NCBI GenBank assembly: GCA_019634615.1
Contig: JAHCAZ010000001.1
Span: forward strand, 62,001 to 126,000
Reading direction: 5' to 3'
DNA from: Opitutaceae bacterium
Lineage (GTDB): Bacteria; Verrucomicrobiota; Verrucomicrobiia; Opitutales; Opitutaceae
DNA: 64,000 nt
This document shows, piece after piece, positions 2,411 through 42,125 of the stretch (the first letter of the stretch is position 1; the number at the start of each line of letters is the position of its first letter). The position numbers were made by a program, and so were the translations under genes. The notes under the pieces were generated by a model, which saw only the letters and a program-made list of their open reading frames with translations, did no database searches and was not told the origin of the DNA.

Positions 2411-3751
2411 ATGCGTCTCGACAAGATCATCGCCCGCAGCCGCATCGTCGACCTGCACAGCCTCACCCTGCAGGGCGCGCTGCAGGAGCTGCTCGAGGTC
2501 TGCGTCCAGACCTTTCCCGACCTCAAGCCCGACGCCCTGTTGAAGGGCCTGCTCGCCCGCGAGAGCACGATGACCACCTACCTCGGCCTCGGGGTGGCGC
2601 TGCCGCACGTGCGCGTGAAGATGAACCGGCGTTTCGTGCTCGCCATCGGCCGCAGCCGCGCCGGCATCCGGCACGACGGCGCGAAGGACGAGGAGAAGGT
2701 GCGCCTCATCTTCATGCTCATCGCCGGGCAGCAGGCGCGCGACTACCTGCAGGTGCTCGCGTCGATCGCGCGGCAGGTGCGCGAGCCCGACCTCGTCGAG
2801 AACCTCGTCGGTGCGCCCGACCTCGACGCTCTCTACGAGCGCCTCCTCGGCGGTTTCGGCGGCATCCGCCCCGTCCACGCGCAGCAGAACCGGATCAACA
2901 AGATCATGTTCAACGAGGCCCAGCGCGTCGCCAAGGGCGCGGACTGCGGCGCCATCATGGTCTTCGGCGACACCTTCGTCGGCGGCATCCAGGCCGGCGC
3001 GCTCCAGGCGAAGATCAAGACCATCCTCGTCACCCGCAACCCGATCGAGCCGAGCGAGGACCAGAAGGACTTCGCTGAGACGATCCAGGTGCGCTCGTTC
3101 TCCGCGCAGCGCATGGCCCAGCTGCGCAGCGCCATCCTCGTGGCGCTGACCCGCGGCATCGTGGCCTACAACGACCGCGTGTGCTGCATTGGCGGGGTCA
3201 CGGGCAGCAACCAGTTTGACACCCTCGCGGTGGTCGACATCGAGCGCGAATTCCAGTCGGTCCTCACCGGCCAGAGCCAGCTGCTGCCCGAGGACGTGAA
3301 GGCGGAGGTCCTCGAGCGCGTGATCGCCGTCGCCACCGAGCTCGCGGTCGAGGGTCGCGAGGGCAAGCCGGTCGGCTGCCTCTTCGTCGTGGGCGACTCG
3401 GGTACCGTCGAACAGCTCAGCAAGCCCCTCGTGCTCAATCCGTTCTACGGCTACAAGGAGGAGGACCGCAACATCCTCAACCCGTTCATGGACGAGACCG
3501 TGAAGGAGTTCTCCTCGATCGACGGCGCGTTCGTGATCCGGGGCGATGGCGTGGTGATCTCGGCCGGCAGTTTGATCCAGGCGATCGATACCAACAACGT
3601 CCTGCCCAGCGGTTTGGGCACGCGGCACGCCGCGGCGTCAGCCATCAGCCTGGCCGCCCAGTGCATCGCCATCGTCGTCTCGTCGAGCACGAGCCAGGTC
3701 ACGCTCTTCCGCCGCGGGGTGATGCTGCCGCTGACGGAAAAGCGGCGGTAG
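2411..3751 (+). CDS. PTS IIA / diadenylate cyclase fusion
   Basis: A 446-residue three-part protein. Residues 1-150 are a PTS EIIA domain of the fructose/nitrogen type, with the phospho-accepting histidine at H66 in GVALPHVRV. Residues about 160-330 form an alpha/beta region (NEAQRVAKGADCGAIMVFGD) that recalls the pyruvate-kinase C-terminal-like domain found before archaeal DacZ cyclases. Residues 360-440 are a DisA_N/DAC domain with DGA at 371-373 and GTRHAAA at 403-409, the two motifs that bind ATP and metal in c-di-AMP synthases. The usual SE(E) after the VVS strand is SSS here, so activity should not be taken for granted. No membrane segment is visible. It is predicted to make c-di-AMP under PTS control; that coupling is inference. 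Confidence 0.85.
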   Translation: MRLDKIIARSRIVDLHSLTLQGALQELLEVCVQTFPDLKPDALLKGLLARESTMTTYLGLGVALPHVRVKMNRRFVLAIGRSRAGIRHDGAKDEEKVRLIFMLIAGQQARDYLQVLASIARQVREPDLVENLVGAPDLDALYERLLGGFGGIRPVHAQQNRINKIMFNEAQRVAKGADCGAIMVFGDTFVGGIQAGALQAKIKTILVTRNPIEPSEDQKDFAETIQVRSFSAQRMAQLRSAILVALTRGIVAYNDRVCCIGGVTGSNQFDTLAVVDIEREFQSVLTGQSQLLPEDVKAEVLERVIAVATELAVEGREGKPVGCLFVVGDSGTVEQLSKPLVLNPFYGYKEEDRNILNPFMDETVKEFSSIDGAFVIRGDGVVISAGSLIQAIDTNNVLPSGLGTRHAAASAISLAAQCIAIVVSSSTSQVTLFRRGVMLPLTEKRR

Positions 3752-39843: not shown

Positions 39844-41844
39844 TCATGACGTGATCGCACCCTCCGCCTCCGCCACGCGGATCGGGAGGATCACGAGGGG
39901 CAGGTTCGCGAGCAGGAAACGGCGCTGGAGGGTGAAGGCGGTGTGGTTGTGGAGCCAGCGGGTGAGGTTCGTCTCGCGGGCGAAGACGAGCTGGCCGGCG
40001 AAGAAGACCTGGTTGGAGAAACGCTCAGCTGCCTGGCGGGCGAGCTTCATGACCTCGCTGGTGAGGTCGTGGCCGATGGCGGTGTAGGTTGCCGTGCCGT
40101 AGCCGTGCGCTCGCGCCCAACTGGCGTAGCGGTCGGCCTCGCTGGCGGTGTGGGCCTGCAGCGCGTCGAGTTCGGCCGCGCCCTTGAAATTTCCGGCGTC
40201 GACCACGCCGACCTGGATGAAGGCGAGGTTGCGGAAGGTCTCGCCGAACATGCGCGGCACCTGCAGGGCGGTGTGGAGGCCGAGACCGTTGAATCCGTTC
40301 ACGAGGATCACGGCGGTGCGGGCCAGCGGGTCGGGCTCCGCCGGGGCAGGGCGGCGTGAGGTCGTCTCGACGGCCGCCGCCTCGACGATGACGTCGAGGC
40401 GCCCGAGCTGGGTGGTGACGTTGCGGTAATGACGCCGGATCGCGAACGCGAGGGCCACGAGCAACCCCGTCGCGACCAGCGTCACCCAGCCGCCCTCGTG
40501 GAATTTCACGACGGCAAGTGACACGAGAATGAACGTGGTCAGCGCGAGGCCGAGGCCGTTGACGGCGATGCGCCGCCGCCAGGCCGGATCCGCGCGCCGC
40601 TGCTGCCACCAGTGGCGCACCATGCCGAGCTGCGAGAGCGTGAAGGTGATGAACACGTTGATCGAGTAGAGCACGACGAGCAGCGCGACCGATCCACGCG
40701 TGACGAGCATCATGACGAGCGCGGCGCCGCCCATGAGCAGAATGCCGTTCTGGGTGACGAGGCGGTCGCTGAGATTGGCGAAACGCGTGGGCAGCCAGCG
40801 GTCGACGGCGAGGTTGGCGAGCACGCGCGGACCGTCGAGGAAGCCGGCCTGCGCGGCGATGAACAGCAGGGCGGCCTCGGAGGCCAGGGTCGCGCCGACA
40901 AATGCCGTGGCCGCGCCCGGCGACCAGTCCGCGGTGAGGCGGCCAAACAGCACGGCATTGAGCGTCTTGCCCTCCTCGGGCGCGACCGCGAAGAGCAGGT
41001 AGGCGAGAAGCAGCCCGGCGACGGTCAGGGCGAGCGAGACGCCCATGTAGAGCATCGTCCGCCGACCCGTGCGCACCCGGGGCTCGCGCAGGATGGGCAG
41101 GCCGTTGCTCACGGCCTCGATGCCGGTGTAGGTGCCGGCGCCCATGCTGTAGGCGCGGAGGAGAACGGCGCCAAGGCCGAGCCAGCCGACCGAGCTGCTG
41201 ACGGTCTGCACTTCCGCGACGGTCGCCCGGGCCACGTCATCGAGGCCGGCGGCGTGCGTGATGAGGGCGTAAAGGACCGCAAAGGCGTGGGTGCCGATGA
41301 AGACGAAGAAGACCGGCACCCACAGGAGCACCGATTCGCGCACGCCGCGGAGGTTGAGCACCGTCAGGAAGACCACGCCCGCGAACGCGAAGGGCAGCTT
41401 GGCGGCATGCCAGGGCGGGGGCAGCAGGCTGAAGAGGGCGTCGGCGCCGCTGGCCACCGAGATCGTGATGGTCAGCACATAGTCGATGAGGAGCGCGCTG
41501 CCCGAGACGACGCCCACCGCCGGCGACAGCAGTTTGCTCGCGACGAGGTAGCCGCCGCCGCCCGAGGGAAAGAGCGCGATGATCTGCGCGTAGCTCGCGC
41601 AGATCACGACGATGGTGACGACCGAGGCGAGCGCGACGAACACCGCAAGGTGCGGGTGGGCGCCGAGGGCCCGGAACGCTTCCTCCGGGCCGTAGCACGA
41701 CGAGGACAGGCCGTCGGCGCCGAGTCCGACCCAGGCGAAGACGGCGATGAGCGAGACTTTGTGGAATAGATGCTGGTCGGTCAGCGAGCGGGCGCGACCG
41801 ATCACGAGGGCCTTGAGGGACCCGAGGAACGAGTGGTGTGGCAT
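39844..41844 (-). CDS. KimA-like potassium transporter (APC superfamily)
   Basis: A 666-residue membrane protein with 12 predicted helices and a cytoplasmic tail of about 170 residues. The N-terminal block ADGLSSSCYGPEEAF and the blocks SYAQIIALFPSGGGGYLVASK and LLIDYVLTITISVASGADAL match the Bacillus KimA (YdaO) pattern, a proton/potassium symporter of the APC group whose C-terminal USP-like domain binds c-di-AMP. A c-di-AMP riboswitch lies in its leader. Together with the cyclase at 2411 it forms a potassium homeostasis unit in this genome; direct c-di-AMP binding by the protein is inference. Confidence 0.85.
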   Translation of the reverse strand: MPHHSFLGSLKALVIGRARSLTDQHLFHKVSLIAVFAWVGLGADGLSSSCYGPEEAFRALGAHPHLAVFVALASVVTIVVICASYAQIIALFPSGGGGYLVASKLLSPAVGVVSGSALLIDYVLTITISVASGADALFSLLPPPWHAAKLPFAFAGVVFLTVLNLRGVRESVLLWVPVFFVFIGTHAFAVLYALITHAAGLDDVARATVAEVQTVSSSVGWLGLGAVLLRAYSMGAGTYTGIEAVSNGLPILREPRVRTGRRTMLYMGVSLALTVAGLLLAYLLFAVAPEEGKTLNAVLFGRLTADWSPGAATAFVGATLASEAALLFIAAQAGFLDGPRVLANLAVDRWLPTRFANLSDRLVTQNGILLMGGAALVMMLVTRGSVALLVVLYSINVFITFTLSQLGMVRHWWQQRRADPAWRRRIAVNGLGLALTTFILVSLAVVKFHEGGWVTLVATGLLVALAFAIRRHYRNVTTQLGRLDVIVEAAAVETTSRRPAPAEPDPLARTAVILVNGFNGLGLHTALQVPRMFGETFRNLAFIQVGVVDAGNFKGAAELDALQAHTASEADRYASWARAHGYGTATYTAIGHDLTSEVMKLARQAAERFSNQVFFAGQLVFARETNLTRWLHNHTAFTLQRRFLLANLPLVILPIRVAEAEGAITS

Positions 41845-41892
41845 GGACTGTCTCCGGCAAGGTCCGGGCCGCGACGGTGTTCCCGCCGCGGC

Positions 41893-41936
41893 GTGCGGAC
41901 GCAGTTAACGTGGGGAGACCGTGGAGACATCCGCAC
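41893..41936 (-). promoter_or_regulatory. Possible expression-platform hairpin
   Basis: GTGCGGA and TCCGCAC pair across 41893-41936, between the aptamer and the transporter start at 41844. It is the only clear stem downstream of the aptamer; no U run follows it, so translational control or Rho-type control would be needed. Confidence 0.4.
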
Positions 41937-41959
41937 TGGCGGAGCCCTAGTGGATCACC

Positions 41960-42125
41960 CTTCCCGCTGCCGACGAGGTTAGCTGACGGGCTCGGTCCCA
42001 GGAAGTGACCTTGGCTGCGGTTGCCCGCGGCCGTGCGCCCCGTCCGCCGCCGGTGAAGGCGACGGAATTTGGTTCCCCCGTGACGCCGCGCAGGAAGGCG
42101 CGCCGCCTTAGGCGATGAAAGAACG
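41960..42125 (-). promoter_or_regulatory. c-di-AMP riboswitch (ydaO-yuaA class)
   Basis: On the minus strand the leader reads GGGGGAACCAA near 42078, a stem CCGTCGCC / GGCGGCGG, GGGGCGCA near 42022, and then the strongest mark of the class, CCCGTCAGCTAACCTCG, at about 41974-41990. These are the conserved elements of the ydaO riboswitch (GGGGGACCCA, GGGGUGAA, CCGUCAGCUAACCUCG). It precedes the KimA-like gene at 41844. Boundaries are approximate: the 5' partner of P1 could be at 42120 or, alternatively, near 42155. Binding of the ligand would turn expression of the transporter down. Confidence 0.87.

Follow-up and report, generated by a model that had tools for sequence, protein, structure and literature searches.

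The window considered here is a stretch of 64,000 nucleotides from an Opitutaceae bacterium. Its minus strand carries a homologue of the potassium transporter gene kimA, preceded by an aptamer of the ydaO class of c-di-AMP riboswitches, and its plus strand carries a diadenylate cyclase gene. The features are the following, roles in switching being proposals.

2411-3751, plus strand: diadenylate cyclase, 446 aa, a PTS_EIIA_2 + DacZ_P + DAC fusion (Pfam E 3.4e-19, 2.1e-25 and 7.1e-20)
39844-41844, minus strand: kimA homologue, K+ transporter of 666 aa (PF13520, E 1.3e-23; PDB KimA 6s3k, E 3.7e-60)
41850-41855, minus strand: S, the Shine-Dalgarno GGAGAC, complementary to GUCUCC 41919-41914
41871-41889, minus strand: hairpin GCGGCGG-GAACA-CCGUCGC within the predicted sequestor stem, its GAAYA loop conserved in 17 leaders
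41913-41920, minus strand: arm A, GGUCUCCC, able to pair with T or with the Shine-Dalgarno
41953-41960, minus strand: tail segment T, GGGUGAUC, proposed anti-sequestor strand with seven T:A pairs (helix chosen by RNAalifold)
41953-42124, minus strand: riboswitch aptamer, RF00379 (cmscan and covariation)
41960-41964, minus strand: pseudoknot strand GGAAG in the aptamer tail, pairing with CUUCC 42005-42001
41990-41974, minus strand: conserved 3' core, CCCGTCAGCTAACCTCG / CCCGUCAGCUAACCUCG
42001-42005, minus strand: CUUCC, loop strand of the pseudoknot, carried by the GGUC/GACC hairpin 42010-41994 and pairing with 41964-41960
42041-42034, minus strand: motif GGGGCGCA in the leader of kimA
42079-42069, minus strand: motif GGGGGAACCAA in the leader of kimA
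42088-42104, minus strand: P2 hairpin with apical loop CUUCCU 42097-42092, compensatory change in 4/4 pairs
42111-42113, minus strand: 5' strand GCC of P1, pairing with GGC 41971-41969

An earlier sequence-only reading had assigned the leader to the ydaO class from three conserved motifs on the minus strand, all of which are present, and had proposed a search with the Rfam model as a check. In this search (cmscan), RF00379 (c-di-AMP riboswitch, ydaO/yuaA leader) matches 42124-41953 of the minus strand over its full length (model positions 1-134 of 134), scoring 50.1 bits where the gathering score is 38. The E-value is 1.2e-8 when both strands of the whole window are searched with all 4227 Rfam families, and 3.7e-10 in a 2-kb search. 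It is the single match in the whole 4.08-Mb assembly, and no other Rfam family reaches its own gathering score in the window. A match to MIR7724 at 42386-42286 (23.6 bits, gathering 100) was rejected as a chance match.

For comparison, 75 distinct aptamers were gathered, and 54 non-redundant ones from Verrucomicrobiota were used for pair counts. The 35 base pairs of the known architecture are standard pairs in 95.3% of cells across these 54, and 21 of them show compensatory change on both sides; the covariation score is 0.367 versus 0.144 in shuffled and at most 0.104 in slid controls. The paired regions thus covary strongly in relatives, and with the RF00379 match above its gathering score both checks named by the sequence-only reading come out in favour of the assignment. 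For the pseudoknot, in which loop CUUCC meets tail GGAAG, 97.8% of cells are paired, mostly through conservation and G-U pairs, with two compensatory cells, and the corresponding segments in a homologue of known crystal structure are CUCCUUC and GAAGGAG (PMC5393176). Covariation of the GGUC/GACC hairpin with the tail (GUGAUC/GCGAUC) failed in the wider set and was dropped. The aptamer had also been described as long and GC-rich with an uncertain P1; the GC content is indeed 69%, whereas P1 is a conserved helix of three pairs (GCC/GGC), formed in 54/54 relatives, its shortness thus being the rule in this lineage. The comparative evidence confirms that the locus carries a genuine but ordinary ydaO-class riboswitch in front of kimA, predicted to bind c-di-AMP.

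The kimA open reading frame begins 109 nt beyond the aptamer end. Its 666-aa product, anticipated as KimA-like, proves to be KimA by sequence: it has one Pfam domain, AA_permease_2, and KimA of Bacillus subtilis is its sole PDB sequence match (phmmer). The K+-coordinating residues of KimA, Asp36, Tyr43, Thr230 and Tyr377 (PMC10284832), are all four identical in the alignment to 6s3k, and likewise Tyr118 and Asn237. Arg337, which increases c-di-AMP affinity in KimA (PMC10284832), aligns with Thr, an Arg being adjacent, and HNQS 579-582, like Arg337 assigned to the c-di-AMP pocket of the cytosolic domain, aligns with HNHT only in a sub-threshold stretch. Expression of this KimA would respond to c-di-AMP, and its activity perhaps as well. 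The closest named relatives of the protein belong to Opitutaceae and Opitutia MAGs. Relatives with 51-53% identity occur in contigs labelled as Methanosarcina(ceae) MAGs (L144, L152), by transfer or mis-binning.

Between aptamer and kimA, a long stem is predicted to enclose the Shine-Dalgarno, the GGAG of which is spaced 7 nt from AUG. All five pairs of the middle helix covary (score 0.370 versus 0.145 shuffled). The outer GUCUCC/GGAGAC helix has 6/6 pairs in the window, and in two sub-types 81% and 95% of its cells are paired. The sequences of arm A and Shine-Dalgarno region differ between clades and still match each other, e.g., GGUUGUC/GACAACC in L006, L019 and L021, GGUUGCC/GGCAACC in L003 and GACAAGGU/ACCUUGUC in L007, and leaders match their own Shine-Dalgarno region better than one swapped in from another species (2/5000 permutations). 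The sequestor stem is therefore well supported by comparative data. Its GAACA pentaloop (GAAYA, GNRNA-like) may offer a tertiary contact.

The alternative pairing of arm A with tail T is moderately supported. RNAalifold picks this helix in an alignment of 17 leaders, and when it is counted explicitly in 54 sequences 92.8% of cells are paired, mostly by conservation and wobble; its score is 0.214, while shuffling gives 0.192 (2/500) and sliding no more than 0.135. An energy permutation test of complementarity between T and the leader is not significant (289/5000), and RNAalifold predicts zero pairs on the wide 54-sequence T-to-A alignment (A3). In folding of single leaders, holding the tail lowers the average Shine-Dalgarno accessibility from 0.43 to 0.38, and the window's own leader loses practically none, so a clear switch is not reproduced by single-sequence folding.

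These pairings fit a model in which high c-di-AMP probably lowers KimA synthesis through sequestration of the Shine-Dalgarno, i.e., by translational OFF control. The OFF direction is also that of the sequence-only reading; the translational mode is added by the present comparison. Binding of c-di-AMP would fix the aptamer together with the pseudoknot (CUUCC 42005-42001 with tail GGAAG 41964-41960), upon which the adjoining T would release A, and the freed A would shut the long stem over GGAGAC and block translation. Without ligand, T would hold A and leave the Shine-Dalgarno accessible. We infer ligand binding, the ligand-favoured conformer and the OFF direction, the last from the riboswitch class, the gene, and loci in which the Shine-Dalgarno and the pseudoknot strand coincide.

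The same riboswitch could instead act by transcription termination, either Rho-dependent or at an intrinsic terminator of the kind that B. subtilis kimA has. Intrinsic termination is used by both B. subtilis ydaO/kimA and Bacillus thuringiensis kdp (PMC9960051, PMC6488665). Here, a consensus scan of the leader gives neither a terminator-like site nor a sigma-70 promoter, no U-run lies between aptamer and AUG, and the covarying stem covers the Shine-Dalgarno instead, which makes termination an unlikely mode of control, though a Rho-dependent form is touched less by these findings.

The direction of translational control is a separate matter. T and the pseudoknot strand overlap by one base, G41960, and mutual exclusion is therefore not forced by base overlap. 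Both could then coexist, the ligand stabilising a T:A helix stacked on the pseudoknot and setting the Shine-Dalgarno free, which would give an ON switch. Such a switch is highly improbable, as the ydaO riboswitches tested are OFF switches (PMC9960051, PMC6488665) and c-di-AMP represses K+ importers in the systems studied. Loci from another family of the class (L091-L094, L097), where the start codon of KimA lies about 37-39 nt past the aptamer core, bear on the same point: the tail strand of L091 and L094, GAGAGG, serves as pseudoknot strand and Shine-Dalgarno at once, an arrangement that fits OFF control only and so favours that direction. In L092, L093 and L097 the same double role of the tail strand would apply with TTG as start codon. 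The layout of L091 and L094 amounts to a minimal direct-occlusion design.

Translational OFF control of potassium import is in line with the genes found behind the riboswitch in relatives. Its distribution is patchy: 59/252 genomes of the family, 85/384 of the class and 24/388 drawn from the phylum have it. Among 141 relatives, it occurs in 16 of the 18 KimA-bearing genomes versus 6 of the 123 without KimA; among the 16, genome G053 bears a distant KimA copy, at a site apart from the riboswitch. Two Opitutaceae loci with a close KimA (L041, L045) have no upstream RF00379 match even at a relaxed threshold. The regulon count covers the 60 loci that a search with the RNA brought up, those retrieved through KimA being left out. 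The first recognised gene, assigned in 57 of the 60, is KimA in 32, SPFH/Band_7 in 16, Kup in 6, TrkH in 2 and KdpA in 1. Four of the eight SPFH loci studied over longer stretches have kimA and/or kdpAB behind SPFH, in these orders.

L024 (929-4931) and L033: SPFH-KimA
L025 (151-8726): SPFH-KimA-KdpA-KdpB
L027: SPFH-KdpA-KdpB

In L029, L030, L031 (3212-5164) and L032, none of the queried K+ transporters follows SPFH within the stretch covered. Among the papers searched, none links SPFH, c-di-AMP and potassium. The kdp genes lie behind the riboswitch in L025, L027 and L068, all outside Bacillales, to which control of kdp by a c-di-AMP riboswitch is apparently limited according to PMC6488665.

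The likely source of the ligand is the diadenylate cyclase, which lies 38 kb from the riboswitch and is the sole DAC match in the assembly. DAC is found in 52/57 relatives. In most of them the domain sits in open frames of similar length (~450 aa). The PTS-type domain suggests a link between c-di-AMP synthesis and phosphotransfer state; the cyclase that accompanies the K+ regulon in Opitutaceae is unusual in its domain make-up. That the aptamer is degenerate and has lost c-di-AMP binding, or that its target is other than KimA, is extremely improbable: the 50.1 bits rank low within the family and the GC content is high, but the core motifs are intact, relatives show compensatory changes, the RNA is linked to KimA and other K+ importers, and a cyclase is present.

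Several known systems resemble the locus in part. Bacillus subtilis ydaO/kimA shares the aptamer class and the KimA family downstream but has an intrinsic terminator (PMC9960051), in place of which a putative Shine-Dalgarno sequestor is found here. The nlpC riboswitch of Corynebacterium glutamicum likewise lacks a terminator, and for it a CTCC/GGAG switch giving translational OFF control has been proposed (PMC9960051); it controls a cell-wall peptidase, and its mechanism was derived from reporters, whereas the present one comes from comparative sequence analysis. Bacillus thuringiensis kdp also places K+ import under this class, as do the three kdp loci above, but through intrinsic termination, unlike the mechanism proposed here.

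The sequence-only reading had regarded the aptamer as a useful variant in a poorly sampled phylum. As a surprising variant it does not stand: PMC6488665, with reference to Nelson 2013 and Block 2010, gives c-di-AMP riboswitches before K+ transporters as already predicted in Verrucomicrobia, and the translational idea had been put forward for nlpC, so the locus is not a new class. What is added is comparative support, in another phylum, for a translational ydaO mechanism, of which one experimental example, actinobacterial, was found in the literature. Two further additions are kdp genes behind the riboswitch in bacteria other than Bacillales and a regulon that takes in an SPFH protein. For Opitutaceae and the class to which they belong, predicted c-di-AMP control of K+ uptake is now on firm ground, and the regulon is consistent. 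Two leads follow, one being the association of the SPFH protein with K+ importers and the other the doubled pseudoknot loop.

The latter also sets the aptamer apart from that of B. subtilis ydaO/kimA, as its P2 loop bears a lineage-conserved CUUCC. This CUUCC in the P2 apical loop, identical to that of the pseudoknot loop, is present in 39/54 Verrucomicrobiota aptamers and is, by sequence comparison, lineage-specific. In 49/54 sequences the P2 loop can pair with the tail at no fewer than four of five positions. Verrucomicrobiota aptamers might accordingly have a second pseudoknot option, the tail GGAAG pairing with either CUUCC loop and the choice of loop driving a translational switch on operons for K+ import, a dedicated SPFH membrane protein among their products; this remains a rather doubtful, tentative proposal. 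In 13/54 sequences, the tail fits the P2 loop better than the known pseudoknot loop.
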